From Caulobacterales bacterium (GTDB lineage Bacteria; Pseudomonadota; Alphaproteobacteria; Caulobacterales; Caulobacteraceae), in contig JACPDR010000003.1 of assembly GCA_016183935.1 (NCBI GenBank), forward strand, positions 1 through 64,000: 64,000 bases of DNA. The letters are read 5' to 3'. The notes beneath the pieces are model-generated. The model saw only the letters and a program-made list of their open reading frames with translations. It was not told where the DNA came from and ran no database searches. Both the position numbers and the translations under genes were made by a program. Shown here in pieces: positions 3,220 through 9,112 of this stretch (positions are counted from its first letter, which is position 1; each line of letters starts with the position of its first letter).

Positions 3220-4323
3220 TCAGCCGGTCAGTCCGAGCGTGATGATGGCGAGGATGAACAGGGTGAAGGCGAAGACGCAGAACACCAGCAGGAACAGGGT
3301 GCGCCACGCCGCCGAGAACCACGACAGGCCGTAGGCGCCCTTCAGCTGGGCGAACATGTGGGCCGGGACGCCGAAGGTGAAGGCCAGCGCCCCGAGTGCG
3401 GCGAACCCGCCCCACAGGGGTCCCAGGATCGAGACGATCATCGCCAGGATCGACATCGCCGTCAGCGAATAGAGCACGAAGACGCCGTGGTCGTAGAGGG
3501 TGAAGCCGCGCCGCCACAGAAACAGCAGGGCCACGAACGGAATCGAGATCGGGATCAGCAGGAAGCTGAATTTGTAGGCCGTCTGCTGGAGCTTGTAGAG
3601 CGCGAGGTCCGGGTTGAGCAGCTTCTTGGTGACGGTCTTGTTGAGCCCGTCGTGGCCGAGACTGACCTTGAGGTCGCCCGAGGCGACGGCGTCGTGGACA
3701 TTGGCCTGCCAGCTGCCCGGGGTGAAGCCGTCGGTCCGCTTGCTCGTCGTGGCGGGCAGGCCGAGCCGGCTTTCCAGCACGGCGACGGTGGTCTCGCGCG
3801 CCTGCTCGGTCAACCGAAGCGCGCTCGATCCCGGCGTGCCCTGGGCGGTCCGCGAGGCCGCCGCCAGTTCGACGCGGGCGGTCTCCAGATCCTCCAGGAG
3901 CTCGATCCGTTCTTCGGGGTCCAGCGTGGTCGTGGCGGTCGGCGCGCCCACGCCGGTGAAGCTGAAGGCGAAGAACATCAGGAAGACGGTGAACAGGAAC
4001 ATCGCCAGCGGCGAGACGTAGCGGGTCCGCCGGCCCTGCACCCATTCGCGCGTCAGACGGCCAGGGTTGATCGCCAGCAGCGGCAGGGTGCGCCAGATGC
4101 GGGCGTCGAAGTGCAATACGCCGTGCAGCATCTCTTCGCCGAGGTGCAGCAGCGAGCGATGGACATGGGTCGGCTGGCCGCAGTTGGGACAGAATTTGCC
4201 GTCGACCGACTGGCCGCAGTCGGTGCAATGGCCCTCCGCGTCGCCGGCGTGGCCGGTCGGCCGCTCCAGCGCTCCCGCGAGAATCCCGCCTGTGGCCGCG
4301 CCGCCCGCCGCGTCGATGTCCAT
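3220..4323 (-). CDS. DUF3667 family membrane protein with N-terminal zinc ribbon
   Basis: Integral membrane protein of unknown role. Near residues 33-50 it has a zinc-ribbon signature, CTDCGQSVDGKFCPNCGQPT, followed by the stretch LLHLGEEMLHGVLHFDARIW that typifies DUF3667 proteins. There is a hydrophobic segment at about 97-117 (LAMFLFTVFLMFFAFSF), a soluble loop of about 130 residues, then four more hydrophobic segments in the C-terminal half (from about 250 to the end). It starts with an ATG at 4321-4323 and lies 39 bp upstream of cpoB on the same strand, between pal and cpoB. The pal terminator (4378-4410) separates it from pal, so it probably has its own promoter. Function unknown. Confidence 0.75.
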   Translation of the reverse strand: MDIDAAGGAATGGILAGALERPTGHAGDAEGHCTDCGQSVDGKFCPNCGQPTHVHRSLLHLGEEMLHGVLHFDARIWRTLPLLAINPGRLTREWVQGRRTRYVSPLAMFLFTVFLMFFAFSFTGVGAPTATTTLDPEERIELLEDLETARVELAAASRTAQGTPGSSALRLTEQARETTVAVLESRLGLPATTSKRTDGFTPGSWQANVHDAVASGDLKVSLGHDGLNKTVTKKLLNPDLALYKLQQTAYKFSFLLIPISIPFVALLFLWRRGFTLYDHGVFVLYSLTAMSILAMIVSILGPLWGGFAALGALAFTFGVPAHMFAQLKGAYGLSWFSAAWRTLFLLVFCVFAFTLFILAIITLGLTG

Positions 4324-4439: not shown

Positions 4440-4991
4440 TCAGCGCGTGGCGCCGCTGACGATGGCGGTGTGGGCGTTGCGGTTGCGGGCCCAGGCCTCC
4501 TCGTTCGAGCCGGCCGCGATCGGACGCTCCTTGCCGTAGCTGATGGTGTCGATACGGGCGGGGGCGATGCCGCGCTGGACCAGATAGGTCCGCACCGACT
4601 CGGCGCGGCGCGCGCCGAGCGCGAGGTTGTACTCGCGGGTGCCGCGCTCGTCGGCGTTGCCCTCGATCCGGACGATGACCTGCGGATAACGCTGCAGCCA
4701 CGCCGCCTGGGCGTCGAGACGCGGGTAGGCGTCGGGGCGAACCTCGTAGCTGTCGAGGTCGAAATAGATCCGGTCGCCGATGTTGACGACGAAGTCCTGC
4801 TCGGAGCCCGGCGTGGACGCGCCGAGGTCGCCGCCATCGACGGGACCGGTCGGAGCCGTCGGATACTGCGGGCCGGTGGCCGGGGGCGTGTCGCCGGCGG
4901 CGCTGTCCACCGGACGGCGCGGGGTGCAGGCGGCGATGGCCGTGACGGCCACGCCGACGGCGACCAGACGGAGGAGGGTCGAGGTCTTCAT
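4440..4991 (-). CDS. pal: Peptidoglycan-associated lipoprotein Pal
   Basis: Outer-membrane lipoprotein that binds peptidoglycan and, with TolB and TolA, constricts the outer membrane at division. It has a lipoprotein signal with the lipobox residues AIAAC (Cys21), a Pro/Gly-rich linker to about residue 60, and an OmpA-like domain at about 70-183. That domain includes YFDLDSYEVRPDAYPRLD, IRIEGNADERGTREYNLALG and ARRAESVRTYLVQRGI, which carry the peptidoglycan-binding Asp and Arg of the family. The start is an ATG at 4989-4991. It follows tolB by 124 bp and ends at a strong terminator. Confidence 0.97.
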   Translation of the reverse strand: MKTSTLLRLVAVGVAVTAIAACTPRRPVDSAAGDTPPATGPQYPTAPTGPVDGGDLGASTPGSEQDFVVNIGDRIYFDLDSYEVRPDAYPRLDAQAAWLQRYPQVIVRIEGNADERGTREYNLALGARRAESVRTYLVQRGIAPARIDTISYGKERPIAAGSNEEAWARNRNAHTAIVSGATR

Positions 4992-5115: not shown

Positions 5116-6486
5116 TCAGCTGGCGCAGCTGTCGGGGCCGCCGCTTCCGAGATTGCTGGGCTGCTCGTCGAGAAGCGGCGACCAGGCCGGATCGGTCCCG
5201 CGGCCGTTGTAACCGGCCTGGCTGACCACCCGTCCCGACAGATCCACGGTCCATAGCCGGGTGTCGCCGCCCGGCGACTGGCGCGCGAACATGATGTAGC
5301 GGCCGTTGGGGGCCCACGACGGCCCCTCCTCGAAATAGCTCGACGAGAGGATGCGCTCGCCGGTGCCGTCAGGCTTCATCACCCCGGTCGAGAAGCGGCC
5401 GCCGCCCTGTTTGGTGAAGGCGATCAGGTCGCCGCGCGGGCTCCAGTTCGGGGCGGTGTAGATGCCGCCGCCGCGCGAGATGGGCCGCTGGCCCGAGCCG
5501 TCGGCGCGCATGATGTACAATTTGGCCGACCCCGAGCGGTCGGAGGTGAAGACGATCTGGCTGTTGTCCGGGCTGAACGACGGCGAGGTGTCGATGGCCG
5601 GATCGTTGGTCAGGCGGCGCACTTGGCGGCTGGCCAGGTCCATCACATAGACGTCGGTGTTGCCGCCCCGGATGATGGAGAAGGCCATCTTCGAGCCGTC
5701 GTTGGAGAAGCGCGGGGCCAGCACCTGGCCGTCGAACTCGCCCAGGCTCTCGCGTCGGCCGGTGGCCAGATTGTACAGGTAGATGCGGCTGTAGTCCTTG
5801 CCCAGCGCGACATAGGTGATCTCGTTGGGGTCGTTCAGCGAGAAGCGCGGCGACATGATGATCTCTTCGCCCTGGGTAAGGAAGACCGGGTCGAAACCGT
5901 CCTGATCCGAGATGGCGAGGCGCGACAGACGGTTGAGCTGGGTGCCGCTTTCCGACACGAACAGCACGCGGCTGTCGAAGAAGGCGGCCTCGCCGGTCAT
6001 GCGCTGATAGACCACGTCGGCGATCTTGTGGCCGATGCGGCGCCACTGCTCGGGCGTGGCGGTGAAGCGGTAGGAAGCCAGCTGGCACTGGCGATAGGGG
6101 TCGTAGAGGCGGAAGCCGTAATCGTTGCGGTTGTCCGGCCGGCGCGTGACTGAGCCGTACAGCACCGCCTGCGCCCCGATCGAGGTCCACTGCGGGAAGT
6201 TGGGAGCGTTGGCGACCGTCAGGCCGGTCTCGACGAAGCTAGCCTGGTCGAGCGGCTCGAAATAGCCGGAGCGGCGCAGGTCGGCGCGGATCACCCCCGA
6301 CAGGTCGGCCCCGTTCTGCCCGTCGAAATTGACCACGGCGATCTGGAAGGGGCGGAGCACGCCCTGGTCGATCTCGACTTCGACCGGGCCGGTCTGTCCG
6401 GGCTGTCCCGGAGGTGTCTGGCCCACGGCGGCGCTCGCGGTCATGGCCAGAATGGCGACGCCGGCCAGAAGTCGGTTCAGACGCAT
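5116..6486 (-). CDS. tolB: Tol-Pal system translocation protein TolB
   Basis: Periplasmic beta-propeller protein that binds Pal and is recruited by TolA. The start is set at the ATG 6484-6486 because it gives a clean signal peptide (LLAGVAILAMTASAAVGQ) and follows GGGAG; an open frame runs further upstream to 6552 but that part looks random. Mature 434-residue protein: N-terminal domain (VEIDQGVLRPFQIAVVNFDG onwards), then repeated propeller blades with the family phrases FSPDNSQIVFTSDRSG, LYIMRADGSGQRPISRGGG and SWAPNGRYIMFARQ. It lies in the tolQ-R-A-(tolA-C)-B-pal order. Confidence 0.97.
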   Translation of the reverse strand: MRLNRLLAGVAILAMTASAAVGQTPPGQPGQTGPVEVEIDQGVLRPFQIAVVNFDGQNGADLSGVIRADLRRSGYFEPLDQASFVETGLTVANAPNFPQWTSIGAQAVLYGSVTRRPDNRNDYGFRLYDPYRQCQLASYRFTATPEQWRRIGHKIADVVYQRMTGEAAFFDSRVLFVSESGTQLNRLSRLAISDQDGFDPVFLTQGEEIIMSPRFSLNDPNEITYVALGKDYSRIYLYNLATGRRESLGEFDGQVLAPRFSNDGSKMAFSIIRGGNTDVYVMDLASRQVRRLTNDPAIDTSPSFSPDNSQIVFTSDRSGSAKLYIMRADGSGQRPISRGGGIYTAPNWSPRGDLIAFTKQGGGRFSTGVMKPDGTGERILSSSYFEEGPSWAPNGRYIMFARQSPGGDTRLWTVDLSGRVVSQAGYNGRGTDPAWSPLLDEQPSNLGSGGPDSCAS

Positions 6487-6582
6487 TGTTAGCTCCCGCA
6501 AGTCAGACGTACGCCGGTCCTTATCACCGGACCGTTCGCGAGAAGCCAGCATGGCCGCGAATGGGGCGACTTTCGGGCCTGA

Positions 6583-6966
6583 TCAGCTTTGATCAGTCCC
6601 GCCGCAGACGCGAGCCAGATTGAACGCAGCCCGAAACTCTCCGCCCGTGTAGCCTTCCGGCACGTCGAAGGGCGCCGAGGTCAGCAGGGCTCTCAGGGCC
6701 GCGTCCGCCGCCGCCCGGTAGACGGGCGTGTCCTGCGCCCGCACCGGCGCCGGATGGCCCACGATCTCGCCGTTCGCGTCGATCGTTACGTCGAAGACGA
6801 TTCTGAGCGCCCGGACGCCGGGCGCTTCGCAGTCGACGCGCCAATGCTCGTAAACCTGGCTCAGAATGGCCGCGCCGGTTTGCGCCTCCGCCGCCCCCGA
6901 CGACGGGCCCTGGGGCGCCGCCTGCAGGCCGAGAACGAGCGCAATTGCGATGTGCAGGGACGTCAC
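6583..6966 (-). CDS. Secreted stand-alone TolA C-terminal-domain paralogue
   Basis: A 127-residue protein with a signal-like N terminus (about residues 1-18, IAIALVLGLQAAP) and no other membrane segment. From residue 35 to the end it is a close copy of the last domain of the adjacent TolA. Aligned pieces are ILSQVYEHW / MFNQVYQNW, FDVTIDANGEI / MDVTLDARGRI, TSAPFDVPEGYTGGEFR / RTAPFDVPSGFSGGEYR and FNLARVCG / FNMERACG. The GTG start (6964-6966) follows GAGG and lies 8 bp after the tolA stop, so the two genes are probably co-translated. It lacks the TolA anchor and Pro-rich arm. Role unknown; a periplasmic partner or competitor in TolA-TolB contacts is one inference. Confidence 0.8.
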   Translation of the reverse strand: MTSLHIAIALVLGLQAAPQGPSSGAAEAQTGAAILSQVYEHWRVDCEAPGVRALRIVFDVTIDANGEIVGHPAPVRAQDTPVYRAAADAALRALLTSAPFDVPEGYTGGEFRAAFNLARVCGGTDQS

Positions 6967-6974
6967 CGGATTCC

Positions 6975-7760
6975 TCAGCCGCGCCCGCAGGCCCGCTCCA
7001 TGTTGAACGACGGACGATACTCGCCGCCGCTGAATCCGGAAGGGACGTCGAACGGCGCGGTCCGGACCAGCGCCTGCATGGCCCCGGCGGCGACGGCGCG
7101 CCAGACCGGATCGTTTCGCGCCCCGACCAGCGTCGGCCCGTCCGTGATGCGACCACGGGCGTCGAGGGTCACGTCCATCTGGATGCGAAGGTCCGCCGCC
7201 CCCGGCGTCTGACAGGGCGGATTCCAGTTCTGGTAGACCTGGTTGAACATGGCGGTGATGACCGGTCCGCTGGTCTGGCCCGCCGTGCCCCCGGACTGCT
7301 GGCCAGACGGCGGCCGCGTGTCCCGCCGGGGCGACCGGTTCGGCCGGTCGGCGGCGAGGGCGCCGAGGTCCAGCCGCGGCTCCTCGCGCGGCCGCGGCGT
7401 TTCGCGCTTCTTCGCCGGCGGCGGCGTGCTGGGCCGCGGCGGCGGCGTCGTGCGCGGGGTCGGCCGGGGGGCGGGCGCCTTTTCCGGCGGACGCGGGGTC
7501 GGCACGGGGGTGGGCGTCGGCGGCGGGGGTTCGGGCGCCTCGACCGGCGGCGCGGCCGCCGTGTCGATCGCCGGGTCCTCGGAGGGCGCGTCGGCGGGGC
7601 CGGCCAGCACCATCTCCTCGGACAGGATCGAGACCGGGATGGTGGTGACGATCTGGCGCTGCGGCCGGTCGCCGGTCGCCGTCAGGGCGAGCAGCACCGC
7701 GCCGATGATCGCCGCGTGGACGACCACCGATCCGATCAGGGCCGGGCCGGGACGCTCCAA
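6975..7760 (-). CDS. tolA: Cell envelope integrity protein TolA
   Basis: Inner-membrane anchored energy transducer of Tol-Pal. A single N-terminal membrane helix (about residues 8-27, LIGSVVVHAAIIGAVLLALT) is followed by a long Pro-rich spacer (about 45-165; many PPP, PTPTP and RPPEK stretches) and a C-terminal globular domain with VYQNWNPPCQTPGAADLRI and FDVPSGFSGGEYRPSFN. The start is a TTG at 7758-7760 preceded by GAGGAGG; there is no ATG in frame. TolR ends 4 bp upstream. Length 261 residues. The spacer uses proline rather than the Ala/Lys-rich helix of the E. coli protein. Confidence 0.93.
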   Translation of the reverse strand: MERPGPALIGSVVVHAAIIGAVLLALTATGDRPQRQIVTTIPVSILSEEMVLAGPADAPSEDPAIDTAAAPPVEAPEPPPPTPTPVPTPRPPEKAPAPRPTPRTTPPPRPSTPPPAKKRETPRPREEPRLDLGALAADRPNRSPRRDTRPPSGQQSGGTAGQTSGPVITAMFNQVYQNWNPPCQTPGAADLRIQMDVTLDARGRITDGPTLVGARNDPVWRAVAAGAMQALVRTAPFDVPSGFSGGEYRPSFNMERACGRG

Positions 7761-7764
7761 ACCG

Positions 7765-8229
7765 TCAGCCCTCCTCGCCCGGGGAGGCGGCGGTGTCGGT
7801 GACCAGGTTCAGCTTGGTGAAGCCGGCGGCCGACAGGCGGGCCATCACCCGCGCCACCGCCTGGTAGGGCGCGCGGCCGTCGCCCCGCACCGAGACCGGA
7901 TTGTCGCGCGCGTCAGCGCCGCCCGCCTCCGACACGCGCGGGATCAGGTCGTCCCAGGCCACGGCGCTCTCGCCGACGAAAATCTCGCCGTCGCGGCCGA
8001 TGGTGACCACCACCGGCTCGTTGACCGAATTCATGGCGCTGGCCTCCGTCTTCGGCAGCTCCACCGGCACCGCCACGTTGAGCAGCGGGGCCGAGATCAT
8101 GAAGATGATCAACAGCACGAGCATCACGTCGACCAGCGGCGTGACGTTGATCTCGCTCAGGGGCCGTTTGCGGGCCCGTCTGCGGCCCCGGACGTGTCCG
8201 CCCGCGCCGCCGCCTCCGCCCATGGCCAT
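7765..8229 (-). CDS. tolR: Tol-Pal proton-channel subunit TolR (ExbD family)
   Basis: Together with TolQ it forms the proton-driven motor that energises TolA. The start is set at the ATG 8227-8229, just 1 bp past the tolQ stop; an upstream in-frame ATG at 8289 would lie inside tolQ. The sequence has a Gly-rich cytosolic N terminus, then SEINVTPLVDVMLVLLIIFMI, in which the membrane Asp of the family (VDVMLVLLIIF) is present, then a periplasmic domain with VPVELPKTEAS and VSVRGDGRAPYQAV. 154 residues. Confidence 0.96.
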   Translation of the reverse strand: MAMGGGGGAGGHVRGRRRARKRPLSEINVTPLVDVMLVLLIIFMISAPLLNVAVPVELPKTEASAMNSVNEPVVVTIGRDGEIFVGESAVAWDDLIPRVSEAGGADARDNPVSVRGDGRAPYQAVARVMARLSAAGFTKLNLVTDTAASPGEEG

Positions 8230-8230
8230 C

Positions 8231-8974
8231 TCAGAGCTCCCGGCGGGCGTAGTCGGCCGCGGGTTGCGGCGCGGGGCTGGACGGGCCACCCAGCCGGCGC
8301 GCCACGGCGGCCTGCAGGTCGTCGGCGAAGCTCTCGAGCCGCCCGGTGAACTTGCCCGCGTCGATCGAGAACTTGTTGTAGGCGATATAGGCCGGGATGG
8401 CCGCCGCGAGGCCGAGGGCCGTGGCGAACAGGGCTTCCGAGATCGCCGGCGCGACCGTGGCCAGGTTGGTGTTGCCGGAACTGGCGATGGCTCCGAAGGC
8501 GTTCATGATGCCCCAGACGGTGCCGAACAGGCCGATGAAGGGCGACGAGGTGGCGACCACCGACAGCACGCCCAGACCGTTCTCCACGCGCTGGCCCTCG
8601 CGCGCGATCAGGCTGTCCAGCGCCCGGTCGATCCGGGCCATCAACATGTTGCCCTGCCCTTCCGTCAGCGGACCCCGGGTGCGCGCTTCACGCCAGTCCG
8701 CCAAGGCGATGACCAGCATGCGCGGCAGGGGATGGACCGGGTGGGGTCCGGCTTGCGCCGCGACGTCCTCGAGCGACCGGCCCGAGCCGACCGCGTTCTC
8801 GAAGGCCGTGGCCTGCCGGTTCAGCGAGCTGAAGCGCACCGCCTTGTCGATGATCACCGCCCACGACCACAGCGAGGCGACGGCCAGGCCGACCATGATC
8901 GCCTTCACGACCGGATCGGCCTCCATGAACAGGGTCACGGGGTTCATCATCATCGATGCGTCGGCGACGGTCAT
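8231..8974 (-). CDS. tolQ: Tol-Pal proton-channel subunit TolQ (ExbB family)
   Basis: Three-helix inner-membrane subunit of the Tol motor. The start ATG (8972-8974) follows the purine-rich gaaagagga; the longer frame to 9076 is not protein-like. Membrane segments are at about residues 20-40 (VKAIMVGLAVASLWSWAVII), 138-160 (GVLSVVATSSPFIGLFGTVWGI) and 175-200 (VAPAISEALFATALGLAAAIPA). The last two include the conserved Thr and Pro positions of the MotA/TolQ/ExbB channel family. First gene of the tolQRA unit, separated from ybgC by 138 bp. Confidence 0.96.
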   Translation of the reverse strand: MTVADASMMMNPVTLFMEADPVVKAIMVGLAVASLWSWAVIIDKAVRFSSLNRQATAFENAVGSGRSLEDVAAQAGPHPVHPLPRMLVIALADWREARTRGPLTEGQGNMLMARIDRALDSLIAREGQRVENGLGVLSVVATSSPFIGLFGTVWGIMNAFGAIASSGNTNLATVAPAISEALFATALGLAAAIPAYIAYNKFSIDAGKFTGRLESFADDLQAAVARRLGGPSSPAPQPAADYARREL

Positions 8975-8990
8975 TCGGTCGTCCTCTTTC

Positions 8991-9015
8991 GTCCGGTGCG
9001 TCCTGTGCACCGGAC
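8991..9015. other. Hairpin in the tolQ leader
   Basis: Perfect 9-bp inverted repeat, gtccggtgc (8991-8999) and gcaccggac (9007-9015), with a 7-base loop, ending 16 bp before the tolQ start and next to its ribosome binding site. There is no T-tract, so it is not an obvious terminator. It could be a weak attenuator, an operator or an mRNA-stabilising structure. Confidence 0.5.
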
Positions 9016-9112
9016 GCGCGTGGCGGATGTGTGGCGAATTGGGCCCGGGTCTAGCGGGCCGGGGCCGCTTCGTCACCCGACCGCATCTGACAGGTGTGTG
9101 AACGGTGAAGCT

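Follow-up and report, generated by a model that had tools for sequence, protein, structure and literature searches.

The Tol-Pal system drives constriction of the outer membrane, and the contact between the C-terminal domain of TolA (TolAIII) and TolB is the point at which force is applied. The N-terminus of TolB binds TolAIII by beta-strand augmentation with a Kd of about 40-200 uM (PMC7391070), and the force that releases TolB from Pal passes through this contact (PMC7391070, PMC8928145); in Pal-bound TolB the N-terminus is buried, which counts against a simple use of the contact (PMC8928145). TolB, ColN and the phage protein g3p all use one common site on TolAIII (PMC4339652). CpoB (YbgF), a periplasmic accessory component encoded in the tol-pal operon, combines a coiled coil with TPRs that bind domain II of TolA (PMC7391070); PMC4458516, searched for TolA domains, gave no passage on them.

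TolAIII has also been produced on its own, as an artificial construct. Exported from a plasmid, TolAIII aids the release of periplasmic protein from E. coli, and cytoplasmic GroEL leaks too (PMC6195910, where Levengood-Freyermuth 1993 and Wan and Baneyx 1998 are cited). No native stand-alone TolAIII gene was found in the full-text literature covered, mostly without subscription journals and preprints, including an article on tol-pal evolution (PMC12204202).

Here we describe such a gene, X, in a window of 64,000 nucleotides (the whole stretch of DNA analysed) from contig JACPDR010000003.1 of a Caulobacterales bacterium. Like the plasmid construct of PMC6195910, X encodes TolAIII alone, in its case behind a probable signal peptide; unlike that overexpressed construct, it is a native gene adjoining tolA. 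Like CpoB it would be an accessory periplasmic protein of the operon, but CpoB is built of a coiled coil and TPRs and binds domain II. X resembles TolAIII of known structure (PDB 1LR0, 6S3W, 3QDP, 4G7X, 2X9A) in fold, in tol-operon position and in homology to the adjacent TolA, whereas full TolA has a domain II and a long anchor region, both missing from X, which carries a short hydrophobic N-terminus instead.

Gene X in the tol operon

The minus strand of the window reads ybgC - tolQ - tolR - tolA - X - tolB - pal - (DUF3667 gene) - cpoB (Table 1), cpoB being called from its coiled-coil/TPR layout, with no match above the curated cut-off. The DUF3667 gene (PF12412, 6.2e-19) occupies positions 3220-4323 on the minus strand. 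TolA of the window has a hydrophobic N-terminal segment, a Pro-rich linker and a C-terminal domain, and matched no Pfam family at E 0.1.

Table 1. Features of the tol operon around gene X, with window coordinates.
Feature	Coordinates	Strand	Basis
tolQ	8231..9076	-	PF01618 3.9e-32
tolR	7765..8289	-	PF02472 4.2e-28
tolA, TTG start as listed	6975..7760	-	tolQR/tolB context and profiles A1, A2
TolA C-terminal domain, paralogous to X	6978..7310	-	BLASTP, own-genome search
GAGGA, Shine-Dalgarno-like; overlaps the tolA stop codon, 5 nt ahead of the X GTG	6972..6976	-	sequence reading
X, 127-aa protein consisting of a lone TolA C-terminal domain behind its N-terminus; GTG start	6583..6966	-	ORF list, BLASTP
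N-terminal hydrophobic segment of X (MTSLHIAIALVLGLQAA); probable Sec signal peptide, lacking a basic n-region	6916..6966	-	hydropathy alone
TolAIII-like domain of X, model residues 25-121	6604..6894	-	AlphaFold2, VIA-align
tolB, presumed X partner; start chosen 6486 (mechanical ORF starts 6552)	5116..6486	-	PF04052 TolB_N 3.6e-23
pal	4440..4991	-	PF00691 OmpA 1.4e-21

The tolA stop codon ends at 6975, 8 nt ahead of X, and 96 nt separate the end of X from the chosen tolB start. Because the gap is so short and the Shine-Dalgarno-like sequence overlaps the tolA stop codon, translation of X is likely coupled to that of tolA, as the initial annotation proposed; no separate promoter or terminator was found at 6400-7100, a test that is weak for a GC-rich alphaproteobacterium. 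The reading frame of X stays open back through tolA, as it would if X were joined to tolA by a frameshift, but it holds no common start codon upstream: the first ATG, GTG or TTG past the preceding stop is the GTG of X. Since this GTG has a good Shine-Dalgarno sequence, a separate start is the simpler explanation.

X is a diverged TolAIII

The initial annotation described X as a signal peptide plus a close copy of the TolA C-terminal domain (TolA-C) and nothing else. The product does consist of that domain alone behind an export-signal-like N-terminus, but "close" overstates the likeness: 51 of 109 residues (47%) are identical to the neighbouring TolA-C (BLASTP, E 5e-34), so X is a diverged paralogue. 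In its own genome, a 95% complete draft, the strong matches to X are X and TolA alone, with one weak match at E 0.08. That X might be a tolA fragment left by faulty assembly, as the initial annotation had allowed, is excluded because X and TolA-C disagree at roughly half of their residues and the arrangement recurs in other genomes.

Pfam and NCBIfam models score X below their thresholds. PF13103 (TonB_2) scores 14.4 bits on X, below its gathering score of 22, and TIGR02794 (TolA) scores 12.6 bits against a cut-off of 59.45, which the genuine TolA of the window fails too (12.7). On five other stand-alone copies, TonB_2 passes in G782 (23.3), gives 21.6 in G584 and 14.6 in G638, and finds no match at E 0.1 in G117 and G044. 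AlphaFold2, given an alignment with 55 relatives, returned a TolAIII-like model with a mean pLDDT of 85.4 and a pTM of 0.71, the first 30 residues being less certain (block means 58-70), and the top six PDB chains found with it by VIA-align are all TolAIII (Z 9.0-10.0 over 84-95 residues). Foldseek gave no PDB match to the model at E <= 0.001; the entries it ranks highest are C-terminal domains of TonB and TolA, the best at 4.2e-03. Of two profiles run against PDB sequences, the class-wide A2 recovered TolA (6s3w, 5.7e-05; 1lr0, 6e-05) and the family profile A1 did not. The C-terminal domain of TonB shares the fold and a weak sequence match (TonB_2), but X sits between tolA and tolB and not with a Ton system. 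Near-invariant residues are retained in X, both cysteines included. With 127 aa and about 24 residues ahead of the domain, there is no domain II, the long linker that spans the periplasm.

Export signals

The hydrophobic core of the X N-terminus, IAIALVLGL, has a Kyte-Doolittle value of 3.09 and no Lys or Arg ahead of it; exported proteins of the same genome reach 2.79 (TolB), 3.10 (CpoB) and 2.57 (Pal), and three cytosolic controls range from -0.39 to 1.84. Export of X to the periplasm is thus plausible from its sequence. A hydrophobic, export-type N-terminal segment is found on all 14 intact tandem copies described below, as judged by computed hydropathy for 12 of them (and for G164) and by reading alone for G803 and G805; start codons and cleavage sites were likewise assigned by reading the sequences. 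Soluble-type N-termini occur in G117 (...TTPVQA), G101 (...WTAVA), G584 (...VAALA), G663, G805, G633 and G782, and soluble-type N-termini without a basic residue before the core in G000 (the window's genome), G044 and G234; Lys and Arg are missing before the hydrophobic stretch in all three Brevundimonas N-termini and in G234. Four copies (G487, G558, G638, G803) have a lipobox-like Cys followed by Ser. Under the +2 rule of E. coli, Ser after the lipobox Cys predicts the outer membrane. Lipoprotein-type and soluble-type copies both occur within one genus.

Distribution in the family and the class

The family survey covered 390 genomes, searched with X as query and with profile A1; among its 131 Brevundimonas genomes, any match was obtained in 123 and 124, respectively. 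Counts of second copies in the family and in the class are lower bounds, since in most genomes scoring went no further than the top 11 or 12 first-look candidates, and the contigs of drafts break near tolA. A tandem copy directly after tolA is present in at least 3 of the 131 Brevundimonas genomes (G000, G044 and G164), that of G164 (draft, 75% complete) being frame-broken. The near relative G018, whose TolA-C is 91-92% identical, has no X, and its tolA-tolB gap contains a short stretch resembling the X 3' end; two further Brevundimonas loci related to the region each hold a single TolA-C before tolB. Genus g18 (25 genomes) has at least two intact copies (G117, G101) and truncated remnants in G108 and G110, and genus g27 (75 genomes) has a tandem copy in at least one genome (G234). 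In G106, G284, G302, G312 and G415, family genomes with two matches, the second match is unlinked.

Across the class, 359 of 387 evenly drawn genomes had an A2 match at E <= 1e-4, and the 28 with two or more matches, the window's genome included, were followed up. Tandem stand-alone copies are present in at least eight of the 387: the window's genome, G487, G584 and G663 (f71), G633 (f136), G558 and G638 (f33) and G782 (f154). In genus g102, X is found in five of seven genomes, three of which are also among these eight. In total, a copy between tolA and tolB was read in 15 genomes including the window's, with an intact frame in 14. The neighbours were checked at 17 loci: 14 tandem loci besides the window, all with TolR on one side of the tolA-X pair and TolB on the other; the locus of G573, where TolB was seen and the stretch was too short to reach TolR; and the unlinked copies of G706 and G676, with neither TolR nor TolB alongside. 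The initial annotation had suggested looking for the tolA - TolA-C - tolB order in relatives, and it was found, patchily in the genus and more broadly than expected outside it.

Variants of the arrangement were also encountered. In G573 (L196, L211), the gene directly following tolA encodes an EF-hand protein with a signal-like N-terminus, fused to a TolA tip nearly identical to that of the adjacent TolA; this tandem fusion was counted apart from the stand-alone copies. G706 (L161) and G676 (L163) encode stand-alone TolA C-terminal domains with signal-like N-termini, unlinked to tolR or tolB, and other short unlinked matches occur in G452, G620, G790, G746, G767, G656 and G722.

Origin by duplication

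A tree built from 122 distinct domain sequences unites the Xs of the three Brevundimonas genomes in one clade (0.966), and the node linking them to TolA-C rows is weak (0.642). Because these Xs group together while the TolA-C of G044 falls in a different clade from that of G000 and G164, the Brevundimonas duplication would be older than these species, or X would have been moved by recombination. In a class tree of 50 rows, X groups with the TolA-C of its own lineage in seven groups, with SH-like supports of 0.877-0.999 (Brevundimonas 0.998, g18 0.877, g27 0.90, f71 0.96, f136 0.969, f33 0.999, f154 0.958); in f33, X and TolA-C branch in an order with low support (0.573). X of G164, G803 and G805 and the fusion of G573 are absent from this tree, and two of its background rows are not TolA but the stand-alone, unlinked domains of G706 and G676; 14 of the 15 tandem copies were assigned to the seven groups.

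The trees bear out the proposal of the initial annotation that X arose by duplication, namely of the TolA C-terminal domain. They suggest that X-type genes likely arose repeatedly in Alphaproteobacteria, the 3' end of tolA being duplicated and provided with a new export signal. Because each X groups with the TolA-C of its own lineage, up to seven independent origins are likely, unless gene conversion between neighbouring tolA and X, which could yield the same topology, masks a common origin. A single ancient X inherited by all lineages goes against the tree for the same reason, although gene conversion could mimic this pattern.

Selection and divergence

In g102, ten X pairs gave dN/dS values of 0.10-0.29 (0-0.16 for TolA-C of the same genomes), and in Brevundimonas the three X pairs gave 0.37, 0.43 and 0.49 (dS 0.83-1.63), with about 0.13-0.16 for TolB and 0.06-0.53 for TolA-C (six pairs each); Brevundimonas X is thus less constrained than TolB, but no less so than the least constrained TolA-C pairs. 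Between G000 and G164, amino-acid identity is 41% for X and 92% for both TolA-C and TolB. Compared with 110 deduplicated Brevundimonas TolA-C rows, X of the window retains the residue at 16 of the 17 columns with a conservation of 90% or more (its own TolA, 15 of 17) and matches 7 of 26 at columns less than 50% conserved (its own TolA, 16 of 28). Since the conserved columns are kept and the variable ones mostly are not, this pattern fits constraint on the fold with rapid change elsewhere. In the lineage of the window itself X looks dispensable, given its absence from G018, its frame break in G164 and the 41% identity between G000 and G164.

TolA-C of Brevundimonas is itself hypervariable, with a median identity of 0.61 (5-95% 0.40-0.92) where TolB identity is 90-95%, as calculated from 161 pairs among 87 loci, of which a few may be duplicate genomes. 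This variability is compatible with an arms race or with domain swapping.

A proposed TolA tip without its motor

The existence of X is firm: the gene type is genuine and little noticed, its parts are ordinary and its recurrence is unusual. Its function we infer. X would be TolAIII freed from the membrane anchor of TolA and from the arm spanning the periplasm, translated just after TolA, and it should not couple to TolQR because both domain II and the long anchor region are missing. Since it keeps the fold to which, in TolA, the N-terminal TolB strand is added as a further beta-strand, its likeliest action is to bind this strand too, without being able to pull on it. X might thereby limit or time the TolA-driven release of TolB from Pal, and the lipoprotein copies might hold TolB at the outer membrane. 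Because X combines the fold and position with a missing connection to the motor, a competitive or buffering role at TolB is suggested, which by proximity would be stronger for the lipid-anchored forms. At 1:1 coupled expression and with TolA-like affinity, X may be too dilute to compete, according to an estimate from copy numbers. The initial annotation had also named CpoB among the partners for which X might compete, and here it is not supported: CpoB binds domain II (PMC7391070), so X, which has none, should not compete for it. Taken together, with binding, export and expression all predicted, it is quite possible, if somewhat short of probable, that X is a periplasmic, motor-free TolAIII that binds the TolB N-terminus and tunes TolA-TolB-Pal coupling. 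The broader proposal, that motor-free TolAIII is a Tol-Pal subunit evolved recurrently and independently, soluble or as an outer-membrane lipoprotein, and gating the mobilisation of TolB-Pal by TolA, is possible but doubtful.

Other functions deserve to be weighed against tuning at TolB, and the position of the gene bears on two of them. X could bind a partner other than TolB, such as another outer-membrane protein or a TonB-box-like peptide; the change at variable positions around a preserved core, the fold shared with TonB C-terminal domains and the coexistence of lipoprotein-type and soluble-type forms inside one genus all speak for such re-targeting, but X adjoins tolA and tolB in every tandem case read and we consider it unlikely. 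X could also act as a decoy that protects the cell by sequestering phage coat proteins or bacteriocins for which TolAIII is the receptor, with an arms race driving its fast divergence. Filamentous phage g3p and some colicins do bind TolAIII (PMC7391070, PMC4339652), and in Brevundimonas TolA-C is very variable and X outpaced it in divergence between G000 and G164; such a role, however, needs no place beside tolA and tolB, and we find it rather improbable.

A third explanation grants X no function: the 3' end of tolA duplicates easily, the copies drift and get lost, and that of the window is on its way out. The tandem copy in at least 3 of 131 Brevundimonas genomes, the missing X of G018, the broken frame of G164 and the remnants in G108 and G110 speak for it, as do the Brevundimonas dN/dS values, which exceed those of TolB though they lie within the TolA-C range. 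Purifying selection and presence in five of seven genomes in g102 argue against it, as do the export-type N-termini on 14 of 14 intact copies and the retention of near-invariant residues including both cysteines; as an account of X it has only a small chance of being right. That X serves as a donor cassette from which the TolA tip is rewritten by recombination would agree with the hypervariability of TolA-C and with the two near-identical tips in G573, but we regard it as hardly credible.

A native, exported TolAIII without motor resembles the constructs engineered for the release of periplasmic protein from E. coli. If such proteins, soluble or lipid-anchored and encoded next to tolA, are recurrent in nature, a brake or buffer may be built into Tol-Pal, and regulation of the TolA-TolB contact becomes directly testable. 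Their apparent recurrence hints at an unrecognised part of this cell-envelope machine.

Other genes also occur between tolA and tolB. Several Brevundimonas gaps (e.g. L014, L022, L034, L126) hold a VapBC-like toxin-antitoxin pair; the one pair scanned, that of L014, consists of a VapB-like antitoxin (E 1e-4, narrowly missing its cut-off) and a toxin with a PIN domain (3.1e-07). A PIN gene is present in 23 of 112 gap rows, a few of which are duplicate genomes, and in 22 it is antisense to tol. In L070 (G176), the gap contains a gene for a DUF1622 membrane protein.
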